Shown in pieces: positions 43,081-54,166 of a DNA stretch of 64,000 bases. A model generated the notes under the pieces. The model did not search any database, was not told the origin of the DNA, and was given only the letters and a program-made list of their open reading frames with translations. The stretch is from Rhodospirillales bacterium (lineage in GTDB: Bacteria; Pseudomonadota; Alphaproteobacteria; Rhodospirillales; Defluviicoccaceae), in the NCBI GenBank assembly GCA_007695045.1, contig REEP01000087.1, positions 1 through 64,000 on the forward strand. The letters are read 5' to 3'. The position numbers were made by a program, and so were the translations under genes. Each line of letters begins with the position of its first letter. Within the stretch, counting starts at the first letter, position 1.

Positions 43081-44663
43081 AAGCCTTCGCCGCGTTGCTG
43101 GACGCCCTCGCCTTCGCGCCGCAGCGCAACGCCAAACTCCGACTGTTGCAGCGCTATTTCCGGGAGACACCGGACCCGGACCGGGGCTATGGCCTCGCCG
43201 CGCTGACGGGAACGCTCACGTTCCCCCATGCCAAGCCGGCGCTGATCCGGAGCCTGGTGGGCACGCGGACGGACCCGGTTCTGTTCGCGCTGTCCTATGA
43301 CTACGTGGGCGATCTGGCGGAGACGGCGGCGCTGCTCTGGCCGGCCGAGGGTGAGGCGAGCACGCCGCCACCGCTCGCCCGCGTGGTTGCGACGCTGGGT
43401 TGCGCCGACAAGGCGCAGTTGCCGGGCCAAGTGACGGCGTTCCTCGATGCCCTGGACGAGAGCGGGCGGTTCGCGCTGCTGAAGCTGATCACCGGCGGAC
43501 TCCGGGTGGGCGTGTCGGCCCGTCTGGCCAAGACCGCGCTGGCCGAACTGGGCAGCGTCGACGTGGCCGAGATCGAGGAACTGTGGCATGGCCTGAAGCC
43601 GCCCTACGGGGAGCTGTTCGCCTGGCTGGAAGGTCGTGGCGCCCGTCCGACCGGGCATCACGGGCTGGGTTTCCGGCCGATGATGCTGGCCACGTCCCTG
43701 GCCGAAGCGGAACTGGACGCGCTCGATCCGGCCGACTTCGCCGCCGAGTGGAAGTGGGACGGCATCAGGGTGCAGGTCACCGCCCGGGGCGGCGAGGCGC
43801 GGCTGTGGTCCCGCACCGGCGAGGACATCACCCGGGCATTTCCGGACGTTGTCGCCCGGATGACCTTCGACGCGGTCCTGGACGGCGAACTGCTGGTGGT
43901 GCGCGACGGCGTGGTCGCCCCGTTCAACCACCTTCAGCAGCGCCTGGGCCGCAAGACGGTGGGCGCGAAGCGGCTGAACGAGTATCCCGCCGCGATCATG
44001 GTCTATGACCTGTTGATGGAAAACGGGGAGGACCTGCGGCCGCGGCCGATGGAACAGCGTCGGCGCCGGCTGGAGGCGTGGACCCGCCAATTGAGCCTGC
44101 CGCAAGTGGCGCTGTCGCCGCTGGTCGCCTTCTCGACGTGGGACGATCTGGCCGGCATGCGCGCCGCGGCCCGCGACGACGGCATCGAGGGGCTGATGCT
44201 GAAGCGGTGGGACAGTGACTATGTGCCGGGCCGGCCGAAAGGGCCTTGGTTCAAGTGGAAGCGGGCCCCGCTCACGGTGGACTGTGTCCTGATGTATGCG
44301 CGGCGTGGCCATGGCCGGCGGTCGTCGTTCTACTCCGACTATACCTTCGGCTGCTGGCAGGAGGATAACGGGGTTGGCCGCGCCCTGGTGCCGGTGGGCA
44401 AGGCCTATTTCGGGTTCACCGATGCCGAACTGGCCGAACTCGACCGCTGGGTGCGCGCCCATACGATGGAGCGGTATGGGCCCGTCCGGGCGGTGCGCCC
44501 GGAACTCGTGCTGGAAATCGCCTGCGACAGCGTGCACCCTTCCGCCCGCCACAAGTCCGGTCTGGCCATGCGCTTTCCGCGGGTGCAGCGTATCCGCTGG
44601 GACAAACCGGCCGGAGAAGCCGACACCGTCGAGGCGTTACGGGCGCTGATCGCGCGGGTCTAA
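43077..44663 (+). CDS. ATP-dependent DNA ligase of the cisplatin/damage-response type
   Basis: The protein has 528 residues. The N-terminal DNA-binding domain (about 1-200) precedes the adenylation domain with the nucleotidyl-accepting Lys in EWKWDGIRVQV (Lys about 226). The other ligase motifs are TFDAVLDGELLV, IEGLMLKRW and WFKWKR. It seals nicks using ATP, beside the NAD-dependent LigA that bacteria normally use for replication. It is the last gene of the repair cluster and overlaps the exonuclease gene by 4 bases. Confidence 0.94.
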   Translation: MKAFAALLDALAFAPQRNAKLRLLQRYFRETPDPDRGYGLAALTGTLTFPHAKPALIRSLVGTRTDPVLFALSYDYVGDLAETAALLWPAEGEASTPPPLARVVATLGCADKAQLPGQVTAFLDALDESGRFALLKLITGGLRVGVSARLAKTALAELGSVDVAEIEELWHGLKPPYGELFAWLEGRGARPTGHHGLGFRPMMLATSLAEAELDALDPADFAAEWKWDGIRVQVTARGGEARLWSRTGEDITRAFPDVVARMTFDAVLDGELLVVRDGVVAPFNHLQQRLGRKTVGAKRLNEYPAAIMVYDLLMENGEDLRPRPMEQRRRRLEAWTRQLSLPQVALSPLVAFSTWDDLAGMRAAARDDGIEGLMLKRWDSDYVPGRPKGPWFKWKRAPLTVDCVLMYARRGHGRRSSFYSDYTFGCWQEDNGVGRALVPVGKAYFGFTDAELAELDRWVRAHTMERYGPVRAVRPELVLEIACDSVHPSARHKSGLAMRFPRVQRIRWDKPAGEADTVEALRALIARV

Positions 44664-44726
44664 TCCGTTATCCGTCCCGATACGTAAACGCCTTTGGTCG
44701 CTACATGTAAAATCATCCGGAAAACC

Positions 44727-46085
44727 ATGCCCTTCGATTCCGCTCCCCCCGCGCGTCCTCTCGACATTGCCGTCATCGGTACCGGCATTTCCGGCATGGC
44801 CGCGGCCTGGCTGCTCAGCGATCGCCATCGCGTGACCGTTTACGAACGCGAAGGCCGGATCGGCGGACACACGAATACGGTGGAGGCGCCGGGGCCCAAT
44901 GGGCCGATCCCGGTGGACACCGGTTTCATCGTCTACAACGAACGCAACTACCCCAACCTGGTGGCGCTGTTCGAGCATCTCGGGGTGCCGACCAAACCGA
45001 GCGACATGTCGTTCGCGGCTTCCATCGACGATGGCGACCTGGAGTATTCCGGCACCGGCATCGCCGGCATGCTCGCACAGAAACGCAACCTGTTGCGCCC
45101 GCGGTTCTGGCGCATGGTGCGGGACATCGTCCGCTTCTACCGTCACGGGCCCGGATTGCTGGAGCGGCCGGAGGCCGAGGCCATCACTCTTGGCGCCTAT
45201 CTGGATGATCAGCGCTACTCCCACAGTTTCGTTTACAATCACCTGTTGCCCATGGCGGCCGCGATCTGGTCCACCGCCGTCGTTGACATGCGCGCCCATC
45301 CGGCCAGTGCGTTCATCCGGTTCTGCACCAACCATGGCCTGATGCAGATGAACGGCCGGCCGCAATGGCGGACGGTGGCGGGCGGCAGCCGGGAATACGT
45401 GCGCCGGCTCACTGCCCGGTACGCCGATCGCGTGCGCCTCAACGCCCGGGTCCGGTCGGTCCGGCGCGTGGCTGGGCGGGTACTGGTCGTCGATGAAACC
45501 GGGCTCGAAGCGACGTACGATCACGTGGTGATCGCGGCCCACGCCGATCAGGCCCTTGCCATGCTGGCGGATGCCGGCGATCGTGAACGGTCGGTTCTGG
45601 GCGCCTTCAAATACGCCCGTAACAGCGCCGTACTGCACCGTGATGCGGCGCTGATGCCCAAACGGCGCAAGGTCTGGTCCAGTTGGAACTATCTCAGCCG
45701 ACGCTGCGACGATGGTTCTTCGGCCGTATGCGTCAGTTATTGGATGAACCGGTTGCAGGGGCTGGATCCGGCGACACCTTTGTTCGTAACGTTGAACGCT
45801 CATCGTCAGCCGCGACCGGACGCAGTGATTGCCACATTCGATTATGATCACCCCACCTTCGATCTCGCCGCCATGGCGGCGCAGCGCCGGTTGTGGAGCC
45901 TACAAGGGCAGCGCAACACGTGGTTTTGCGGCAGTTATTTCGGCGCCGGTTTTCACGAGGACGGCTTGCAGGCGGGCTTGGCCGTAGCGGAAGCTCTGGG
46001 CGGTGTTCGGCGGCCTTGGTCCGTGGACAACGAGTCTGGCCGGCTCCACCTGCCACCGGCAGCGGTGACGCCGGTCGCCGCATGA
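44727..46085 (+). CDS. FAD-dependent amine-oxidase-like oxidoreductase
   Basis: The protein has 452 residues. The FAD-binding signature IAVIGTGISGMAAAWLLSD lies near the N-terminus, followed by YEREGRIGGHTNT and VDTGFIVYNERNYP; the C-terminal FAD-contacting part has NTWFCGSYFGAGFHEDGLQA. Relatives are encoded with DUF1365 and cyclopropane synthase genes. I recall the Rhodobacter homologue being under RpoE/ChrR control and implicated in modified (furan-type) fatty acids. The ATG at 44727 is chosen over a TTG at 44694. Its stop overlaps the next start (ATGA). Confidence 0.88.
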   Translation: MPFDSAPPARPLDIAVIGTGISGMAAAWLLSDRHRVTVYEREGRIGGHTNTVEAPGPNGPIPVDTGFIVYNERNYPNLVALFEHLGVPTKPSDMSFAASIDDGDLEYSGTGIAGMLAQKRNLLRPRFWRMVRDIVRFYRHGPGLLERPEAEAITLGAYLDDQRYSHSFVYNHLLPMAAAIWSTAVVDMRAHPASAFIRFCTNHGLMQMNGRPQWRTVAGGSREYVRRLTARYADRVRLNARVRSVRRVAGRVLVVDETGLEATYDHVVIAAHADQALAMLADAGDRERSVLGAFKYARNSAVLHRDAALMPKRRKVWSSWNYLSRRCDDGSSAVCVSYWMNRLQGLDPATPLFVTLNAHRQPRPDAVIATFDYDHPTFDLAAMAAQRRLWSLQGQRNTWFCGSYFGAGFHEDGLQAGLAVAEALGGVRRPWSVDNESGRLHLPPAAVTPVAA

Positions 46086-46882
46086 CCGCGTTCGCATCCG
46101 CTCTGTATCGCGGTGTGGTGGTGCACCAGCGGGTTCGTCCGCGCCGGCATCGGCTGAGGTATCGCGTCTTCTCGATGCTGATCGACCTGGACGAACTGCC
46201 GCGCTTGCATCGCGCCCTCGGATTGTTCGCCCACAACCGCTTCGCGCTGTTCAGCTTCCGGGACCGTGACCACGGTCCGGGCAAAGAGCATCCGCTCCGT
46301 CCCTTCGTCGAGGACCATCTCAGGCGGGCCGGCATCGATCTCGCCGGGGGCGCCATTCGTGTGCTGTGCTACCCGCGCATTCTCGGCTATGTGTTCAATC
46401 CGCTCAGTGTATTTTTCTGCTACCATCGCAATGGCACGCTCGCGGCCATCCTTTACGAGGTGAACAACACCTTCGGTGAGCGTCATTCGTACCTGATCCC
46501 GGTCGTCGACGGGACCGATGGACCGATCCGTCAGACGTGTGCCAAGCGGTTCTACGTGTCGCCGTTCAACGCGGTGGCAGGGTCTTACCGGTTTAAGGTC
46601 GTCCCGCCGGAGGCGCAGGTTTCGGTCGTGATCAACCAGCACGATGAGGACGGGCCGATACTCTACGCCGCGTTCAACGCGAACCGCACGCCGCTCAGCG
46701 ATCGCGCGCTGCTGGCCGCGTTCATGCGCTATCCGCTGATGACGGTGAAGGTGATCGCCGGCATCCATTGGGAGGCGTTTCGCCTGTGGCGGAAAGGGTT
46801 GCGCCTGGTCGAACGGCCGACCCCGCCTGCGGAACCGGTCACCATCGTCGCCCCCGCCACCAGCCTTCCCCCGGGAGCCTGA
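46082..46882 (+). CDS. DUF1365 domain-containing protein
   Basis: The protein has 266 residues. Family patterns are ALYRGVVVHQRVRPRRHRLR at the N-terminus, then RILGYVFNPLSVFFCYH and YEVNNTFGERHSYL. No enzyme activity is established. It is consistently encoded between a flavin oxidoreductase and a cyclopropane-fatty-acid synthase, as here, so a role in fatty-acyl chain modification is inferred from context. It overlaps the FAD gene by 4 bases. Confidence 0.92.
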   Translation: MTAFASALYRGVVVHQRVRPRRHRLRYRVFSMLIDLDELPRLHRALGLFAHNRFALFSFRDRDHGPGKEHPLRPFVEDHLRRAGIDLAGGAIRVLCYPRILGYVFNPLSVFFCYHRNGTLAAILYEVNNTFGERHSYLIPVVDGTDGPIRQTCAKRFYVSPFNAVAGSYRFKVVPPEAQVSVVINQHDEDGPILYAAFNANRTPLSDRALLAAFMRYPLMTVKVIAGIHWEAFRLWRKGLRLVERPTPPAEPVTIVAPATSLPPGA

Positions 46883-46885
46883 TCC

Positions 46886-48121
46886 ATGCCAGGAACCAAT
46901 CCCAACGAACAGCCCCGGCGTTTCGACCTGCCGGCGGCGCGGGGCACCAGCCTGTGGGCTCGTCCCCTGCTGCGACTGGCACGGCGTCTCAAGTACGGCC
47001 GACTGCTGCTGGTGCTGCCCGACGGCAGCAGCCATACCATTGACGGTGAGAAGCCGTCGCCGCTGCGCGCCGTGCTGGAGATTTCCCGCCCGCGGGCGGT
47101 GCGTCGCCTTCTGTTCGGCGGGATCAACGGCTTTGCCGAAGCCTACATGGACGGCGACTGGCACACGCCGGACTTGGTGGCCCTGCTGCACCTGGCCCTC
47201 GCCAACGAAGACGCCCTGGGCGATGGGGTGGAGGGTTTGGCGGTCATGCGCTGGCTCGCTCATCTTCGCCACCGGCTCCGTCCGAACACGCGCCGCGGCA
47301 GCCGGCGCAATATCGCCTACCACTATGACCTCGGCAATGATTTCTATGCAGCGTGGCTGGACCCGAGTCTGACGTATTCATCGGCCCTGTTCGATCGGCC
47401 TGGTCTCAGCCTGGAGGCGGCTCAGGCACGCAAGTACCGCCGCTTGGCGCGCGCCCTGGAATTGCGCCCGGGTCATCGGGTTCTGGAGATCGGCTGCGGC
47501 TGGGGCGGCTTCGCCTTGTGCGTCGCCCGCGATGTCGGCTGCCACGTCACCGCCATCACCGTGTCCGAGGCTCAGGCGCGACTGGCGACGAAGCGGGTTC
47601 ACGAAGCCGGCCTGGATGGGCTGATCGATATCCGGCTCACGGATTATCGCGATGTGCGGGGCAGATTCGACCGCATCGCCTCGATCGAGATGTTCGAAGC
47701 GGTGGGAGAGGCGAATTGGCCCACGTACTTCGACGTCGTCCGCGACCGCCTGCGGCCGGACGGGATCGCCGGGCTGCAGGTGATCACCATCGAGGATTGG
47801 CGCTTTCCTGCGTATCGGCGCAACGCCGATTTCATTCAAACGCATATCTTCCCGGGCGGCATGCTGCCGTCTCCCTCGGCCATGACGGCGGCGGCGGAAC
47901 GGGTTGGGCTGCGGCCGGCGGGTGCGACCCGGTTCGGACGCGATTACGCGACCACGCTGGCGATGTGGCAGGACCGGTTCCAGCAGGCGTGGCAGGATGT
48001 CCGGGCCTGCGGCTTCGACCTTCGCTTCAAGCGCTTGTGGGAATTCTATCTGGCCTACTGCGAGGCCGGTTTCCGCCACGGTTCCATCGACGTCGGCCAG
48101 TACCTCTTCCGGCGAGCCTGA
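46886..48121 (+). CDS. Cyclopropane-fatty-acyl-phospholipid synthase family methyltransferase
   Basis: The protein has 411 residues. The N-terminal lipid-binding part includes FGGINGFAEAYMDGDWHTPD. The methyltransferase part has NIAYHYDLGNDFYAAWLDPS, LTYSSALF, the SAM site VLEIGCGWGGFALCVA and SIEMFEAVGEANW. It methylates unsaturated acyl chains of membrane phospholipids using S-adenosylmethionine, giving cyclopropane or methyl-branched products. It starts 3 bases after the DUF1365 stop. Confidence 0.93.
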   Translation: MPGTNPNEQPRRFDLPAARGTSLWARPLLRLARRLKYGRLLLVLPDGSSHTIDGEKPSPLRAVLEISRPRAVRRLLFGGINGFAEAYMDGDWHTPDLVALLHLALANEDALGDGVEGLAVMRWLAHLRHRLRPNTRRGSRRNIAYHYDLGNDFYAAWLDPSLTYSSALFDRPGLSLEAAQARKYRRLARALELRPGHRVLEIGCGWGGFALCVARDVGCHVTAITVSEAQARLATKRVHEAGLDGLIDIRLTDYRDVRGRFDRIASIEMFEAVGEANWPTYFDVVRDRLRPDGIAGLQVITIEDWRFPAYRRNADFIQTHIFPGGMLPSPSAMTAAAERVGLRPAGATRFGRDYATTLAMWQDRFQQAWQDVRACGFDLRFKRLWEFYLAYCEAGFRHGSIDVGQYLFRRA

Positions 48122-48141
48122 CCGGCGCCGGAGCGGCGGCT

Positions 48142-49500
48142 GTGGACACCACCCTCGACCGGCGCACCCTGGTCGCCTATGCGCTGCCGGCGTTGGCGTT
48201 GGCGATGCCGACCATACCGGTCTACGTCTTCCTGCCAACTTTCTACGCGGAGACTCTGGGCCTTGGCCTGACCGCCACGGGCGCGGCACTCCTGATGGCG
48301 CGGCTGTTCGATGTCATCACCGATCCCGCCGTCGGCTATGTCAGCGACCGGTGGCGCACGCCGTGGGGCCGGCGCAAACCCTGGATCGCCATTGGCGGCT
48401 TGATTGCCGCCTTTGCCCTGGTGCGCCTGCTCCAGCCGCCCGACGTCGTTGAGAGTGGATACCTCGTGCTGTGGGCGATCGTGCTCTACGTCGGTTGGAC
48501 CCTGGTCGCCGTGCCGTACACGGCCTGGGGGGCCGAGTTGTCCAGTGACTACGACGAGCGCTCGCGCATCACCGGCAGCCGCGAAGCGGCCATGATCCTC
48601 GGCATCCTGGCAGCCGGTTCGCTGCCGGCCGTCGTGACCGGGCTCGGCGGAGATGAAGCACTGGGACTAGCGGCCGTCGCCTGGCTTGCCGTGGGCATCG
48701 GCGGGCCCGCCATGGTGTGGATGCTGTGGCGCGTGCCCGAAGCCGCGGTGTCGACCGCGCCGGCGACCCCCATCCTGCGTCGGGATGGCTGGCGGGCCGC
48801 GGTGGAGAACCGCCCGTTCTTGCGCCTGCTCAGTGCCTGGTTCGTCAACGGCTTGGCCAACGGTGTGCCGGCGGTCGTGTTCCCGCTCTATCTGCAGCAC
48901 GCTCTGGGGGCGGGAACGGTCGCGAGCGGCGTGCTGATTTTCGTCTACTTTCTCTCGGGCGTGCTGGCGATCCCGCTGTGGCTGAAGGTGAGCCGGCGAT
49001 TCGGCAAGCATCGCGCCTGGTGCATTGCCATGGCTCTGGCCTGCGCCGCATTCATCTGGGTACCGTTCCTCGAATATGGCCAGATCGGTCCGTTCTTCGT
49101 CATTTGTGTGGTCACCGGCATGGCGCTCGGCGCCGATCTGGCTTTGCCGCCGGCGATGCAGGCCGACGTCATCGACCTGGACGAGTTGCGCACGGGTCAG
49201 CAGCGAGCCGGATTGTACTTCGCGCTGTGGAGCATGTCCTACAAGCTGGCCCTCGCCGCGGCCGTCGGCCTGGCTTTCCCGGCACTTGATCTTGTGGGCT
49301 TCCAGGCCGGAGCCAGCAATCCGCCGGGCGCCATTCTTGCCCTCACCCTGATCTATGCCGCCGCACCCACCGTACTGAAATTGGTGGCGATTGCCCTGGT
49401 GTGGCACCACCCGATCACGGCTCATCGTCAGAGGATCATACGCGAACGGCTGTCGCGCCGTGGTCGCGGTCGATCCAGGGCGCAGCAACGACATGCTTAA
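48142..49500 (+). CDS. MFS transporter of the GPH (glycoside-pentoside-hexuronide) type
   Basis: The protein has 452 residues and twelve hydrophobic segments. The pattern ARLFDVITDPAVGYVSDRWR (about 53-72), then TPWGRRKPWI and VPYTAWGAEL, is diagnostic of GPH cation symporters. The start is GTG at 48142 after GGAGCGG, 20 bases behind the cyclopropane synthase gene, so it lies in the same operon. The usual sugar role may not apply; the substrate in this lipid-linked operon is unknown. Confidence 0.9.
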   Translation: MDTTLDRRTLVAYALPALALAMPTIPVYVFLPTFYAETLGLGLTATGAALLMARLFDVITDPAVGYVSDRWRTPWGRRKPWIAIGGLIAAFALVRLLQPPDVVESGYLVLWAIVLYVGWTLVAVPYTAWGAELSSDYDERSRITGSREAAMILGILAAGSLPAVVTGLGGDEALGLAAVAWLAVGIGGPAMVWMLWRVPEAAVSTAPATPILRRDGWRAAVENRPFLRLLSAWFVNGLANGVPAVVFPLYLQHALGAGTVASGVLIFVYFLSGVLAIPLWLKVSRRFGKHRAWCIAMALACAAFIWVPFLEYGQIGPFFVICVVTGMALGADLALPPAMQADVIDLDELRTGQQRAGLYFALWSMSYKLALAAAVGLAFPALDLVGFQAGASNPPGAILALTLIYAAAPTVLKLVAIALVWHHPITAHRQRIIRERLSRRGRGRSRAQQRHA

Positions 49501-50071
49501 GCGAAGCCTGTTGATCGTCGCGTTGATGATTTCAGGGTGCACGAATATGAAGGTTGAAGACTTCTCCGGAGCGACACCACAGCTAAAACTGGAAGAATAT
49601 TTCCTTGGGAAGACGCAGGCCTGGGGTCTTTTCGAGGATCGATTCGGCACTGTCCGACGACAGTTTTCCGTCACGATCGATGGGTCATGGGACGGATCCG
49701 TTCTGACCCTGGACGAGCATTTCGTCTACGCGGATGGGGAGACGGATCGCCGTGTCTGGCGCATAACCAAGGTCGATGCGGAGACCTATCACGGACGTGC
49801 CGATGACATCGTCGGGATCGCCGTCGGACGTACTGCCGGCAACGCGCTGAACTGGCGCTACGACATGGATCTGAAAGTCGGGGACCGCACCTGGCGCGTG
49901 CACTTCGAAGATTGGATGTTCCTGCAAGAGGACGGCGTCTTGATCAATCGCGCGCGCGTCTCGAAGCTGGGGATAACACTGGGTGAGGTGACCCTGTTCT
50001 TCATGAAAGAGCAGCCAGACGCTGAAATGACACAGGGCGACCGGAACACCTTGGCTATGGCTGTTCGCTGA
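49493..50071 (+). CDS. DUF3833 family lipoprotein
   Basis: The protein has 192 residues with a lipoprotein signal (LLIVALMISGC, Cys about 16). The mature part matches DUF3833: LEEYFLGKTQAWGLFEDRFG and TLDEHFVYADGETDRRVWRI, and it resembles a lipocalin-like beta barrel. It probably sits in the envelope and may bind a lipid; no function is proven. It overlaps the permease gene by 8 bases and converges on the NTF2-like gene with a 17-base overlap. Confidence 0.88.
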   Translation: MLKRSLLIVALMISGCTNMKVEDFSGATPQLKLEEYFLGKTQAWGLFEDRFGTVRRQFSVTIDGSWDGSVLTLDEHFVYADGETDRRVWRITKVDAETYHGRADDIVGIAVGRTAGNALNWRYDMDLKVGDRTWRVHFEDWMFLQEDGVLINRARVSKLGITLGEVTLFFMKEQPDAEMTQGDRNTLAMAVR

Positions 50072-50507
50072 CCGCGAGCCTTCGCCGCACCCATCGCAGC
50101 GCCGGCCCGAGCAACGGGATCTGATCGTACACCACCTCCGATGGGTCCCAGTAATCGATGTGTTGCCTCACCCGCCCCTCCGCGTCGAACAACAGGTGGG
50201 CGACGCCGTCGATCTGCACCGGCCGGTTGCCCAGGCGCCTCAATCGGCCGGAGAACGTCCACAGTACCAGCCCCTGATCCCTCTGACACGCCGCGTGCGC
50301 GACCCGAAACCGAAGGTCGGCCACGTCATCGAACATGCGCGCGAAAACCCGGCGCATCCGTTCTTGGCCGCGCACGTCGTTGAAGGGATCGCGAAATCGC
50401 ACGTCCGACGTCGTCACCGACGCCAACGTATCCAGGCCGTCGGCCGTCAGCGCTTGCAGCACGTCCAGGTAGCCGGCACCCGGCGCTTCGCCGGCGGTCA
50501 TTGTCAT
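50055..50507 (-). CDS. NTF2-like (SnoaL-type) protein
   Basis: The protein has 150 residues with an alpha+beta cone fold: YLDVLQALTADGLDTLASVT, DVRFRDPFNDVRGQERMRRV and VAHLLFDAEGRVRQHIDYWD. NTF2-like proteins are ligand pockets or small enzymes (isomerases, cyclases). The ATG at 50505-50507 overlaps the SDR stop (ATGA), so it is the last gene of the sigma-factor-linked minus-strand operon. Substrate unknown. Confidence 0.85.
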   Translation of the reverse strand: MTMTAGEAPGAGYLDVLQALTADGLDTLASVTTSDVRFRDPFNDVRGQERMRRVFARMFDDVADLRFRVAHAACQRDQGLVLWTFSGRLRRLGNRPVQIDGVAHLLFDAEGRVRQHIDYWDPSEVVYDQIPLLGPALRWVRRRLAVSEQP

Positions 50508-51262
50508 TGCCGTTGCACCAGCCTGCGCGTGAGAGGGAAGTAGAGCGCGTAGGGCAGGCAGCGCAGCAGCTTCAATGTCCAGGTGAAGCGGCGGGGAAAC
50601 GTGATCTCGAACCGGCGGGAATCCAGGCCGCGCACGAGCCGCTGCGCCGCATCGTCGGGCTCCATCAGGAAGGGCATGGGGAAAGGATTGCGGTCGGTCA
50701 ACGGCGTACGGACGAAGCCGGGGTTGATGACTGAGATGCGCACGCCCGCGCGATCCAGCTCCGGCTTCAGCGCTTCGCACATGTTGATCAGCGCGGCCTT
50801 GGTGGCCCCGTAAGCCCCCGCCGTGGGCAGGCCCCGGTAGCCGGCCACGGACGCCACCACCGCCACATGGCCCCGGCGCTGTGCACAGAACCGGGGCAGA
50901 AGAGCGGCAAGGCCGTTCACGGTGCCCATCAGGTTCACCTCCACCAGGGTGCGAAACGGCTCGACGGAAAATTCCGTGGCGCGAACCGGCTGGTGGGTGC
51001 CTGCATTGAGAATGGCGAGATCGATGGGACCAAGGCGTTCCTCGATGGCGTCGACAACATCGAGCGTCGCGGCCGCATCGCCCACATCCAGCGGAAACGG
51101 ATGTATCTCTCCGGGGAGAGCCGACAACTCCTGGGCCAATGACTCGAGATCCGATTGAGTGCGAGCACTGGCAGCCACAGTATCGCCGCGCTGCGCCAGC
51201 GCGACGGCAACCGCACGCCCCAGCCCCTTGCTCGCGCCTGTCAGCCAGACAATGCGGCTCAT
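50504..51262 (-). CDS. Short-chain dehydrogenase/reductase
   Basis: The protein has 252 residues. The nucleotide-binding TGASKGLGRAVAVALAQRGD, LNAG, the active-site VASVAGYRGLPTAGAYGATK (Ser, Tyr and Lys) and INPGFVRTPLTD are all present. The C-terminal tail PFPMPFLMEPDDAAQRLVRG and the basic FPRRFTWTLKLLRCLP suggest membrane association. A similar SDR belongs to the RpoE/ChrR regulon of Rhodobacter, as I recall (RSP1087-type). The ATG at 51260-51262 overlaps the previous stop (ATGA). Confidence 0.9.
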   Translation of the reverse strand: MSRIVWLTGASKGLGRAVAVALAQRGDTVAASARTQSDLESLAQELSALPGEIHPFPLDVGDAAATLDVVDAIEERLGPIDLAILNAGTHQPVRATEFSVEPFRTLVEVNLMGTVNGLAALLPRFCAQRRGHVAVVASVAGYRGLPTAGAYGATKAALINMCEALKPELDRAGVRISVINPGFVRTPLTDRNPFPMPFLMEPDDAAQRLVRGLDSRRFEITFPRRFTWTLKLLRCLPYALYFPLTRRLVQRQ

Positions 51263-51987
51263 GCCGATCCGGGCGACGTTCCGTGCTCGGGACGACAGAC
51301 CTCGCACTCGTATTCGATGGTGGATCCGTCTTTGGCCTCGAACCGCATCTTCACCCAGCGCCCGTCCGGATCGTACCAGACCTCCGTGTGCAGGTCGCCG
51401 GAGTAGCGATAGTGACGTGCTGTCACCGGTTGTCCCGCCACCATCACCGTCGAGGGGCCGAGCGGCTCCACCGTCACACGGGCGACCCGGCCGTTGATCG
51501 TGTTCAGCACTCGGTCGCTGTCGACCACCGATGCGTTCCAGTGGGTGGTGGGAAAAATCGCCGGATCGGTGACGTAGCCCCCGGTCGGTCCCTGGACATG
51601 CAGCTCATCGCCGCGGCGCTCGGCGGTGACGCGGCTGAGGCTGCCGTTGTCATCGGTTTCCGCCGAGAGGGACACCAGGCAGCCATCCCGCCAGACATCC
51701 TGAGAGCGGTAGCTGTAACGATAGGCCGAGAAGAACAAGACCCGCACTTCCAGATCGAACCGGGTGTCTGCGATGACGCGATCCCCGTCGTTGCGAAAGT
51801 GCACCCGGTGCGCGCCAACCGGCCTTCCGTCGCGAAGGACGCGGAAGCGGAGTTCGTCACCGTACAGGCCGCGGGGATCAGACACAGCGTCGACGCAGCC
51901 TTCCTGAGGAGCGGCGGCACTGCCGCTGGACGGTGCCGTGGCGTTCATGGCGAGCGCCAACGCCCCGGTAGCTGCGACTAAGCGCAT
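51259..51987 (-). CDS. DUF6134-like secreted protein
   Basis: The protein has 242 residues with a signal peptide from MRLVAATGALALAMNATA. The mature part is beta-rich, with LRFRVLRDGRPVGAHRVHFR, DLEVRVLFFSAYRYSYRSQD and a C-terminal Cys pair CEVC. I believe this is the DUF6134 family, found beside chrR in related bacteria; its function is unknown. The start chosen is the ATG at 51985-51987. It lies 112 bases after chrR, so a separate promoter is possible. Confidence 0.72.
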   Translation of the reverse strand: MRLVAATGALALAMNATAPSSGSAAAPQEGCVDAVSDPRGLYGDELRFRVLRDGRPVGAHRVHFRNDGDRVIADTRFDLEVRVLFFSAYRYSYRSQDVWRDGCLVSLSAETDDNGSLSRVTAERRGDELHVQGPTGGYVTDPAIFPTTHWNASVVDSDRVLNTINGRVARVTVEPLGPSTVMVAGQPVTARHYRYSGDLHTEVWYDPDGRWVKMRFEAKDGSTIEYECEVCRPEHGTSPGSA

Positions 51988-52099
51988 CGACGACCCTGCC
52001 GGTCTGTCGGAACAGTATCCAGATGGGTGACGGATCCGCAATCGAACCTCCGTATCCGGGTTGTCGATGGTGCAGGGCCTTCAGACAGAGCAAAGGTTT

Positions 52100-52771
52100 T
52101 CACATCCGCAAAAACGGATTGACGAGCCGCCCGACCATGCCGGTCAACTTCACCGGCGCATCCAGAACCACGAGACTGATACACGGCTCATCGGTGTCGA
52201 CGACCGGGCGGTGAACATGCGACTGATCCTTGCAGGCGAAATCGCCGGGGAGATACTCCCCGGTCTCGTCGGAAAAGCCGCCCGACAAAACGAGAGTGTA
52301 CTCCACGCCACGGTGGGTATGCACCGGCACGGTAGCCCCCGGTGCCAGCCGCATCAGCGAGACCTTGAATCCCGGCATCCGGATCGGCAGCCGGATTTCC
52401 TCAAGGGCCCGGGTAATCCCTCGCCACGGCAACGAGTCCCAGCCGCCGGCGCGGACCGCCCCGAGATAGCGGCGCAGCGGCCCCGGGATCATGTGCGCCC
52501 CTTCCTCCGACGCCGCGATGGAATTGGCCGCCAACGTCTCCACCTCGGGTTCGTCCAGGCGCGCGAGAACCGCATCGAGTGCCCCCTCTTGCATCGGCAC
52601 GGGCGTGAGCGTGTCCAGCATCGCGCCGCCCAATGCCTCCGCCGCGTCGATGTCGTCCCGACACATGGGGCACAGTGCGGCGTGCGTGGCTACCGCCAGC
52701 GCCACCGGCTCGGGCAGAGTGCCGGCCGCATAGTCAAAGAGAAGTTCCAGAGGCGGGTGGTGATTGATCAT
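52100..52771 (-). CDS. chrR: ChrR family anti-sigma factor
   Basis: The protein has 223 residues. The N-terminal zinc-binding anti-sigma domain has His about 5, then HAALCPMC (His 30, Cys 34, Cys 37). The C-terminal cupin domain has PVHTHRGVEYTLVLSGGFSD (His 151, His 153, Glu 157) and HVHRP (His 187). In Rhodobacter sphaeroides ChrR holds the sigma factor inactive until singlet oxygen triggers its breakdown. All metal ligands look intact. The start overlaps the sigma-factor stop (ATGA). Confidence 0.95.
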   Translation of the reverse strand: MINHHPPLELLFDYAAGTLPEPVALAVATHAALCPMCRDDIDAAEALGGAMLDTLTPVPMQEGALDAVLARLDEPEVETLAANSIAASEEGAHMIPGPLRRYLGAVRAGGWDSLPWRGITRALEEIRLPIRMPGFKVSLMRLAPGATVPVHTHRGVEYTLVLSGGFSDETGEYLPGDFACKDQSHVHRPVVDTDEPCISLVVLDAPVKLTGMVGRLVNPFLRM

Positions 52772-53340
52772 AGCTGTTCCTCGGGGAGGGCCTGACGGAG
52801 TCGCGCGAGCCCAAGCCTGATCCGGGATTTGACGGTTCCAAGGGGTAAATTCAATTCTTCTGCGATCACGGAATGTGATTTGTCCTCGTAAAACGCCTTC
52901 TGCAGGACGACGATCTGATCCTGCGGCAGCGTCGCCAGAACGCGGCTCAGAAGATCGCCAGCCGTCGACCACTGCAATCGATCGTCCGGAGCGGCCTCCT
53001 CAGACGGCTGTTCGGCTGCTTCATCCAAGGCTACCTCCGGATGGCGCTGGCGGCGGAACATGTCGATCCGCTTGTTGCGTACAATCGTGAACACCCATGT
53101 GGTTGCCGACGCGCGGCTTCGGTCAAACGTCGCCGCCTTGCGCCACAGCGCCAGCATCGCCTCCTGAGCCAGTTCGTCCGCGGTCGCCGCATCGGATCCC
53201 TGCCGAATGCCGAACGCCTTCAGGCGCGGGGCAAAGTGTCGGAACAGTTCCGAAAATGCCCTCCGATCCTTATGCTGAGCCACCGCCTCGATGAGGTCGC
53301 ACAAACGATCGTTGTCCAAGCGAGCCCCCGCTTGCATCAT
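52768..53340 (-). CDS. rpoE: ECF sigma factor of the RpoE/ChrR group (ECF11)
   Basis: The protein has 190 residues from the ATG at 53338-53340. Region 2 is ATADELAQEAMLALWRKAAT followed by WVFTIVRNKRIDMFRRQ. Region 4 ends in LPLGTVKSRIRLGLARLRQA. The gene pair with chrR identifies it as the singlet-oxygen-type sigma. An in-frame ATG at 53427 would add 29 residues; a start at 53523 is excluded if the promoter at 53461-53486 is real. It is probably autoregulated. Confidence 0.92.
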   Translation of the reverse strand: MMQAGARLDNDRLCDLIEAVAQHKDRRAFSELFRHFAPRLKAFGIRQGSDAATADELAQEAMLALWRKAATFDRSRASATTWVFTIVRNKRIDMFRRQRHPEVALDEAAEQPSEEAAPDDRLQWSTAGDLLSRVLATLPQDQIVVLQKAFYEDKSHSVIAEELNLPLGTVKSRIRLGLARLRQALPEEQL

Positions 53341-53460
53341 CCGGGTCGCCGCATCCCGGTCCCGCGAACGGAACCGAACCCCAAGATTTAACTGCGGCAC
53401 CCCATCAATGACGAACGCTGTGCTCATGTCCAGCCCGACCGTCAACCGATAATGCAGAAC

Positions 53461-53486
53461 TACGCGCGGTCCACCCGGACGGATCA
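53461..53486 (-). promoter_or_regulatory. Candidate RpoE-type promoter of the sigma-chrR operon
   Basis: On the minus strand TGATCC (53481-53486) is followed after exactly 18 bases by TA (53461-53462). I recall TGATC...TA as the core of RpoE/ChrR-controlled promoters in Rhodobacter. The same spacing recurs before the glutathione peroxidase gene. Confidence 0.6.
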
Positions 53487-53547
53487 CACGAGAAGTGTCC
53501 CGAACGGTCGATCCATCTCGCATGGCGCCACGGAACCCCGGGTCTCG

Positions 53548-54108
53548 TCAGGATCGCGGTAAGTGAGATTCTACCGCTGACCTGAGCCGCGTGGAGGACG
53601 GCGGCGTCATGCTGGAGAACCAGTCGACCAGTCGCCCGTCTGGCGCGATCAGGTATTTGTGAAAGTTCCACCGGGGTTGCGCCACCACGCCCAACTCCGC
53701 CGCAGCCCACTGGTAAAAAGGATGCGCCTGGGTGCCCTTCACAGACACCTTGGTCGTCAGGGGGAAGTCGATGCCGAACGTGACCTCGCAGAACTCTCGG
53801 ATTTCGGCTTCGTCGCCCGGTTCCTGCGCACCGAAGTCGTTGGACGGGACGCCCAACACCACCAAGCCGCGATCGCGGTACCGCTGCCACAGGTCCTGCA
53901 ATCCTGCATACTGACTGGTAAAACCGCAAAAGGATGCCGTGTTGACGACCAGCACGGCCCTGCCCTGGAAACGGGACAGCGGCAGAGGCGACCCGTCGAT
54001 GGCGGTGAAGGCGAAATCATGAGCACTGCCTGCGGTCGCGCCGACCTGGCCGGCCTGCGCAGCCACCAACATGGCGGCCATGCCCAAAACGGTCCTTGCC
54101 AATCCCAT
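53548..54108 (-). CDS. Glutathione peroxidase family protein, exported
   Basis: The protein has 186 residues from the ATG at 54106-54108. The signal peptide is TVLGMAAMLVAAQAG. The GPx site is AVLVVNTASFCGFTSQYAGL (peroxidatic Cys, not selenocysteine), with VPSNDFGAQEPG (Gln) and WNFHKYLIAPDGRLV (Trp, Asn). It reduces peroxides, probably in the periplasm with thioredoxin-like donors. It lies behind rpoE-chrR in orientation and has its own promoter candidate at 54141-54166. Confidence 0.92.
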   Translation of the reverse strand: MGLARTVLGMAAMLVAAQAGQVGATAGSAHDFAFTAIDGSPLPLSRFQGRAVLVVNTASFCGFTSQYAGLQDLWQRYRDRGLVVLGVPSNDFGAQEPGDEAEIREFCEVTFGIDFPLTTKVSVKGTQAHPFYQWAAAELGVVAQPRWNFHKYLIAPDGRLVDWFSSMTPPSSTRLRSAVESHLPRS

Positions 54109-54140
54109 GGTATCCTCCGGCATCAGTGTGTCGGAAAAGA

Positions 54141-54166
54141 TACCCTGCCGGCGGTCCCTCGGATCA
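54141..54166 (-). promoter_or_regulatory. Candidate RpoE-type promoter of the glutathione peroxidase gene
   Basis: TGATCC (54161-54166 on the minus strand), 18 bases, then TA (54141-54142, in GTATCTT). This is the same geometry as the element before the sigma gene. It lies 33 bases before the chosen ATG. It touches the 3-prime end of the upstream hydrolase gene, so the promoter is intragenic at its left flank. Confidence 0.6.

Follow-up and report, generated by a model that had tools for sequence, protein, structure and literature searches.

Furan fatty acids scavenge singlet oxygen; they are thought to protect membranes and to feed back on ChrR, the anti-sigma factor that, together with the extracytoplasmic function (ECF) sigma factor σE (RpoE), governs a core regulon reportedly stemming from Dufour 2008. 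According to published work, this core comprises about eight genes, furan synthesis included, and the turnover of ChrR under singlet oxygen requires furan fatty acids (PMC6852236, PMC5507510). In Rhodobacter sphaeroides, 18:1 chains are methylated by UfaM and desaturated by UfaD, and the furan is formed with O2 by the DUF1365 protein UfaO; the R. palustris homologues of ufaM, ufaD and ufaO are enough for furan synthesis (PMC7380195). Here we describe an island at positions 44,661 to 54,166 of a window of 64,000 nucleotides (the whole stretch of DNA analysed; contig REEP01000087.1 of assembly GCA_007695045.1) from a Rhodospirillales bacterium. It is the known regulon in unusually complete form, plus one apparently undescribed arm that consists of a DUF6134 gene, a short-chain dehydrogenase (SDR) gene and a SnoaL-like gene. 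We consider it about 70% probable that the island is a σE-ChrR (ECF11) furan-lipid stress locus, in a bacterium that lacks a photosynthetic reaction centre, and that its products would make furan lipids, use them and clean up after them. A recurring second operon, apparently controlled by this sigma factor too and encoding a protein that resembles lipid binders, offers testable candidates for the fate of furan lipids after synthesis.

The known core of the island, namely the σE (RpoE)-ChrR (ECF11) regulon with ufaD, ufaO, ufaM, a GPH permease, DUF3833 and the SDR, corresponds to RSP_1091-1087 plus RSP_2144 of R. sphaeroides, with which it shares the sigma and anti-sigma factors, the three Ufa enzymes, the permease, a lipoprotein, the SDR and the promoter type. 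An initial annotation of this DNA had correctly noted homologues of several island genes in the Rhodobacter regulon, but its description of that regulon as scattered was largely wrong, and full scattering is ruled out: RSP_1087-1091 adjoin rpoE-chrR on the upstream side (PMC7074977), and only ufaM (RSP_2144) and others lie elsewhere. Unlike R. sphaeroides, in which ufaM is remote and the SDR gene belongs to the ufaD operon, the window has all of these genes together with a second operon. Its synthesis genes have a counterpart in RPA2571-2569 of R. palustris, where ufaD, ufaO and ufaM carry consecutive locus numbers. R. capsulatus likewise has a peroxidase (BsaA1, in a glutathione peroxidase operon) beside rpoE-chrR but, unlike the window, is described without homologues of RSP_1087-1091 (PMC7074977), and the periplasmic glutathione peroxidase PgpD of Shewanella is under the sigma factor, with promoters of the TGATCC/CGTA type (PMC4336711). 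Therefore, both the island core and its peroxidase have precedents. The locus rpoEc-chrR-chrA of Stenotrophomonas maltophilia, together with smlt2375-2367, also joins rpoE-chrR to a third gene and a divergent lipid cluster, and loss of chrR in that species strongly induces a protein of the lipocalin family, but the product of its third gene is not DUF6134 but a cytoplasmic protein that binds NAD(P).

The island comprises eleven open reading frames (ORFs), arranged as two converging five-gene operons and a separate peroxidase gene. The plus-strand operon reads ufaD-ufaO-ufaM-permease-DUF3833 and the minus-strand operon rpoE-chrR-DUF6134-SDR-SnoaL, with the glutathione peroxidase gene upstream of rpoE. 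In a profile search of the window proteins, all eleven exceed the Pfam or NCBIfam cut-off of the family proposed for them, in agreement with the tightly packed island of named families first proposed; against the NCBIfam GPH model the permease stays below the cut-off (172.3 vs 231.35 bits). The features are as follows.

44661..44686, plus strand: σE-type site before ufaD (TAATCC-N16-CGTA, one mismatch), ending 40 bases 5' of the ATG
44727..46085, plus strand: ufaD-like flavin adenine dinucleotide (FAD) oxidoreductase, putative methyl-fatty-acid desaturase (Amino_oxidase 83.7 bits, E 2.2e-23), adjoining ufaO as in R. sphaeroides
46082..46882, plus strand: ufaO-like DUF1365 protein, putative furan-forming oxygenase (DUF1365 283.8 bits)
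46886..48121, plus strand: ufaM-like S-adenosylmethionine-dependent fatty acyl methylase of the cyclopropane fatty acid (CFA) synthase family (CMAS 277.8 bits)
48118..49500, plus strand: MFS_2/GPH-like permease in the position of RSP_1089 (MFS_2 283.4 bits), start uncertain, CTG 48118 or GTG 48142
49493..50071, plus strand: DUF3833 lipoprotein (DUF3833 224.2 bits, lipobox ISGC), predicted calycin-like 10-strand barrel with a predicted local distance difference test score (pLDDT) of 89.8
50055..50507, minus strand: SnoaL/NTF2-like protein (SnoaL_2 63.8 bits, E 2.4e-17)
50504..51262, minus strand: SDR, compare RSP_1087 (adh_short 162.1 bits; GxxxGxG and S-Y-K motifs)
51259..51987, minus strand: DUF6134 protein (DUF6134 198.3 bits; by eye, a start resembling a signal peptide), modelled as an EipB-like beta-spiral, pLDDT 89.5
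52100..52771, minus strand: chrR, zinc anti-sigma factor with a cupin-like domain (TIGR02451 203.7 bits, cut-off 124.5; HxxxCxxC and HxHxxxE)
52768..53427, minus strand: rpoE, ECF sigma factor (Sigma70_r2 62.9 bits, plus Sigma70 r4), start ATG 53427
53461..53486, minus strand: σE-type site before rpoE, exact TGATCC-N16-CGTA
53548..54123, minus strand: glutathione peroxidase (GSHPx 113.7 bits; signal-like start by eye), start possibly 54108
54141..54166, minus strand: σE-type site before the peroxidase gene (TGATCC-N16-GGTA, one mismatch), whose upstream end is the end coordinate of the initial annotation

Four of the eight same-strand junctions are 4-base overlaps with ordinary start codons, one is an 8-base overlap, one a 3-base gap, and chrR is separated from DUF6134 by 112 bases. 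The ufaM-permease junction would be a fifth 4-base overlap only with CTG 48118, the first ordinary start (GTG 48142) lying 20 bases 3' of ufaM. The DUF3833 and SnoaL genes overlap tail to tail by 17 bases. For rpoE, ATG 53427 is preferred, because starts at 53487 and 53523 would fall 5' of the promoter. The SDR and the glutathione peroxidase have their active-site motifs. By its sequence, with zinc anti-sigma and cupin-like domains in ChrR and promoters of the expected type, the rpoE-chrR pair is of the ECF11 type. In the host genome (3.35 Mb in 138 contigs, 97.6% complete), the ChrR model and DUF6134 each find a single match, and Photo_RC finds none. The RpoE-ChrR lipid regulon of the initial annotation is thus supported by σE-type sites before ufaD, rpoE and the peroxidase gene, as well as by co-occurrence with chrR, whereas its “photooxidative” part is not.

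The three furan-pathway enzyme families (UfaD, UfaO and UfaM) are consecutive in the window, which, as judged from these families, probably holds the genes of the UfaM-UfaD-UfaO furan fatty acid pathway. The initial annotation had left the product open among cyclopropane, methyl and furan fatty acids, but the product of ufaM, ufaD and ufaO is already known to be methylated furan fatty acids (PMC7380195). Membership of the methylase in the CMAS family, and the homology of UfaM to CFA synthases, would also suit an ordinary cyclopropane synthase, with cyclopropane rather than furan fatty acids as the island product. This is very improbable: with the CFA-synthase equivalog models NF053839 (cut-off 600) and NF008686 (cut-off 400), the island methylase obtains 262.8 and 263.5 bits, whereas the other CMAS copy of the genome, 37% identical to it, reaches 604.4 against NF053839, and ufaD and ufaO adjoin, as among the R. 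palustris genes sufficient for furan synthesis (PMC7380195). The scores of 604.4 and 262.8 therefore place the regular CFA synthase elsewhere in the genome and a diverged copy between ufaO and the permease gene. The DUF3833 protein is very probably the core-regulon lipoprotein RSP_1088, by place and size rather than by sequence. Thus, among the three new regulon members proposed initially, DUF3833 is better regarded as a known one, and DUF6134 and the SnoaL-like gene, not met in the literature searched, are left as new.

The layout recurs across genomes. We surveyed 240 genomes of the class, among them that of the window, by profile matches and their 15-kb neighbourhoods; chrR rows weaker than E 1.5e-15 were left out and two split chrR genes were joined, which kept 102 chrR matches in 94 genomes, and the DUF6134 matches include fragments. 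DUF6134 is found in 98 genomes, DUF1365 in 117 and DUF3833 in 85, and the ChrR model matches 124 genomes at E 0.001 and 84 above its curated cut-off. ufaO and chrR occur together in 88 genomes, chrR alone in 6 and ufaO alone in 29 (Fisher p 6e-32, without correction for kinship). At most 15 kb separates ufaO from 48 of 102 chrR matches, 56 of 94 DUF3833 matches and 44 of 125 DUF6134 matches; of all 125 DUF6134 matches, 24 lie that close to chrR, 31 to DUF3833, and 51 to at least one of the three. Among pairs less than 3 kb apart, DUF6134 is downstream of chrR on the same strand in 10 of 11, and convergent with DUF3833 in 26 of 26, with a gap of 1.18-1.47 kb in 18, which leaves room for the SDR and SnoaL genes. 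These co-occurrence and proximity counts rule out a chance clustering of the island genes. The initial annotation had proposed such a neighbourhood survey, with missing co-occurrence as the outcome that would speak against it; the island families and chrR co-occur strongly elsewhere, and its proposal therefore stands in this respect.

The complete eight-gene set (ufaD, ufaO, ufaM, GPH, DUF3833, SnoaL, SDR and DUF6134) is present in 21 of 50 other DUF6134 islands fetched, where single genes range from ufaD and ufaO (43 each), SDR (42), ufaM (40), SnoaL (39) and GPH (36) to DUF3833 (30) and chrR (23). In a second sample, the best 80 ufaO loci, some of them short stretches, the set is complete in 13, with DUF6134 in 23, DUF3833 in 32, SDR in 38, SnoaL in 20 and chrR in 43. 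The two samples are only partly independent, because L201/L079 and L222/L049 give identical DUF6134; these identities also point to Alphaproteobacteria as the class surveyed. Carriers of all eight genes include Thalassospira, Nisaea, Oceanibaculum, Aestuariispira, Kordiimonas, SAR116 and the gammaproteobacterium Marinobacterium. In the public annotation of an Azospirillum thermophilum plasmid, DUF6134-SDR-NTF2 converges on DUF3833-MFS-methyltransferase-DUF1365-FAD, the methyltransferase being annotated short. As fourth gene, DUF6134 follows ufaM on the same strand in five of the best 80 ufaO loci, among them a Sphingomonas metagenome-assembled genome and one labelled Nitrosovibrio.

The pattern TGATCC-N16-CGTA was derived from rpoE upstream regions, is the consensus printed for P. 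syringae, and was scanned from -300 to +60 of the aligned start. In the survey islands, it occurs exactly before 20 of 34 rpoE and 13 of 44 ufaD genes. Island DUF6134 genes not behind chrR carry it in 16 of 41 cases (23 of 41 at one mismatch), and those behind chrR in 0 of 10. No exact site precedes the internal SDR, SnoaL, GPH, ufaM and ufaO genes (0/210), and the reversed-sequence control gave none exact and one at one mismatch. In the best 80 ufaO loci, sites with at most one mismatch precede 40 of 44 rpoE genes, 37 of 65 ufaD genes outside SAR11 and 10 of 23 DUF6134 genes, compared with 0 of 146 in reversed sequence; the DUF6134 genes without a site there are the five that follow ufaM, as expected, three of Variovorax/Mitsuaria and five others. 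Because DUF6134 has sites before its own start where it is not behind chrR and none where it is, it is very probably a direct σE target in many species, via the chrR operon or its own promoter, as far as promoter motifs indicate.

The family as a whole has a wider distribution. Of the isolated loci, we fetched 20 of 41 for chrR (counted within the 88 strongest rows) and 40 of 74 for DUF6134; 5 of the latter 40 have an exact promoter. With 74 of 125 DUF6134 matches off the island and 35 of 40 isolated genes without an exact promoter, the DUF6134 family is therefore not bound to the σE-ChrR regulon, and a purely island-specific family is ruled out. A Paracoccus plasmid, for example, has DUF6134 in an unrelated neighbourhood. 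A single clade for all island DUF6134 is likewise rejected, since on a quick tree, with 49 of its 109 inner branches open, the island label must change 31 times (mean of shuffled labels 37.7). In the same tree, the window's own subclade is ufa- or sigmaE-linked in 26 of 28 rows, near-copies included. DUF6134 had no mention in the literature searched, searches for SnoaL or lipocalin with ChrR gave no description of a DUF6134-SDR-SnoaL operon, and the excerpts of the R. sphaeroides regulon literature name neither DUF6134 nor the SnoaL gene. Hence no earlier report was found, and DUF6134-SDR-SnoaL as a σE-ChrR unit appears new in the literature searched.

Profile searches against solved structures gave nothing significant for DUF6134 or DUF3833, the best DUF6134 match being an unrelated enzyme at E 0.054. 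The predicted model of DUF6134 (pLDDT 89.5) adopts a beta-spiral or half-barrel fold, and its best solved match is Brucella EipB (DUF1849; Foldseek E 4.7e-6), with a Z-score of 14.0 and a root-mean-square deviation (rmsd) of 3.8 over 193 residues at ~10% identity. An axonemal chain ties with it (Z 13.9), followed by LmcA (10.2), DUF1089 (9.7) and the enzyme VioE (9.2); RseB (8.2) and LolA (7.9) are near background, a level where chance likeness is common. EipB is linked to envelope integrity in Brucella, its own role being unsettled, and unlike that of DUF6134 its neighbourhood has bamA and lpx genes (PMC10787603). The DUF3833 model (pLDDT 89.8) is predicted as a single 10-strand up-and-down barrel of the calycin-like type; its top-ranked match is a designed transmembrane barrel (Z 15.8), and it also resembles nitrobindin (Z 13.7, rmsd 2.8 over 135 residues) and FABP3 with palmitate (Z 9.6). 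DUF3833 and DUF6134 most likely bind lipids in the periplasm.

Altogether, the gene content, recurring layout, σE-type sites before DUF6134 and predicted folds computed here may be combined with the UfaM/UfaD/UfaO chemistry and the ChrR control, both carried over from other species, into the following scheme. Singlet oxygen or organic peroxides would release RpoE from ChrR, as is known in other species, and RpoE would then direct transcription of three units: the operon rpoE-chrR-DUF6134-SDR-SnoaL to which it belongs, the operon ufaDOM-permease-DUF3833, and the peroxidase gene next to them. UfaM, UfaD and UfaO would convert 18:1 phospholipid chains to furan fatty acid, and the furan lipid would react with oxidants and feed back on ChrR. 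Oxidised furans give enediones. Most likely, the SDR and the SnoaL-like protein work at a later stage, on carbonyls that arise when furan lipids are oxidised, the glutathione peroxidase removes peroxides, and DUF3833 and DUF6134 bind or transport these lipids within the periplasm; these accessory roles are all ones that we infer.

An alternative is that DUF6134-SDR-SnoaL serves general envelope maintenance, as an EipB-like chaperone or in lipoprotein trafficking, co-induced by σE and unconnected to furan lipids. It is suggested by the match to EipB with its tie to Brucella envelope integrity and by the 74 of 125 DUF6134 matches off the island, but DUF6134 is within 15 kb of ufaO more often than of chrR (44 vs 24 of 125), follows ufaM directly on the strand in the five loci mentioned, and in the window's subclade is almost always ufa- or sigmaE-linked. 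We regard this alternative as the less probable account, at perhaps one chance in four. Somewhat more doubtful still is an extra synthetic step of the SDR and SnoaL-like protein toward a further modified furan or branched lipid, instead of clean-up. The two genes share an operon whose end, in many islands, faces that of the synthesis operon, but deletion of RSP_1087, 1088 or 1089 left the fatty acid profile of R. sphaeroides unchanged, which makes these genes, the operon SDR RSP_1087 among them, dispensable for synthesis (PMC7380195). It would be quite surprising if DUF6134 supplied the RseB that the singlet-oxygen pathway lacks, as a secreted lipid sensor, encoded in either the rpoE-chrR or the ufa operon, that detects furan or oxidised acyl chains in the cell envelope and gates DegS/RseP-dependent ChrR proteolysis. 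In R. sphaeroides, this proteolysis involves DegS and RseP homologues and requires RSP_1090/1091, and no RseB homologue was found there (PMC3818230); the weak RseB likeness of DUF6134 and the ten loci in which it stands behind chrR point this way, but the RseB fold match is at background level and 24 genomes with a kept chrR match have no DUF6134 match.

Several observations weigh against the furan-lipid stress locus as the preferred reading. Besides these 24 genomes and the off-island majority of DUF6134 matches, no chrR, ufaO or DUF3833 match was found in the two other sampled genomes of the window's order. The unchanged profile of the RSP_1087-1089 deletions fits downstream roles and supports none. 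As for promoters, the window sites before ufaD and the peroxidase gene carry one mismatch each; among the 41 island DUF6134 genes not behind chrR, 18 still lack a site when one mismatch is allowed; 35 of 40 isolated DUF6134 genes lack an exact one; and one-mismatch sites precede 9 of 210 internal genes. DUF3833, usually operon-internal, has an exact site in 1 of 32 cases and a one-mismatch site in 9 of 32, with 1 in the reversed control (L034-L103); the one-mismatch sites may be a secondary promoter or a codon-driven match. Photolyase is a usual, non-defining member of the core, which is conserved in 45 of 73 species (PMC5507510), and the host genome's one photolyase gene has no site on its own strand at up to two mismatches in its 3.5-kb locus. 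The peroxidase gene, which the initial annotation had included in the island, recurs in one of the 50 other islands fetched and in none of the best 80 ufaO loci; it is thus ruled out as a conserved part and is a local feature only.

Among the best 80 ufaO loci, fourteen belong to Pelagibacteraceae (SAR11), a very abundant ocean group, and have ufaD-ufaO-ufaM-DUF3833 with a convergent SDR gene (L221, L225, L226, L231, L239, L242, L246, L250, L254, L255, L257, L258, L259 and L261; for example L259:8767-13250). In the fetched stretches of all 14 there is no rpoE/chrR, and no σE site precedes ufaD at one mismatch (0/14); a putative gcvP before and a putative TspO after the cluster, named by eye, flank 12 of the 14. 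If these synthesis genes function alike, furan fatty acids would be predicted in SAR11, and in the literature searched, only work on dinoflagellate volatiles matched both terms.

In 20 of the best 80 ufaO loci (L185, L190, L193, L203, L207, L211, L220, L233, L252, L256 and ten more), the stretch that holds ufaD or ufaO also encodes a further methylase of the CFA family with a weaker score (110-145 bits), and this is possibly FufM, the dimethyl-furan enzyme.

The host genome has 211 sites at up to one mismatch vs 37 for a control pattern, an excess that codon bias can explain and that was not used as evidence. Six sites are exact, three of which have clear targets, namely rpoE, a fasciclin-domain gene and a peroxiredoxin gene; a fasciclin family member, RSP_1409, is in the induced-gene table of R. 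sphaeroides (PMC7074977). Chance may account for two others, one close to a PadR gene (L105) and one within an Rrf2/MarR region (L108). A further exact σE-type site lies ~150 bases before an FAD/NAD reductase-like gene (L107:1501-2477), which is a weak candidate for the putative reductant of UfaO.

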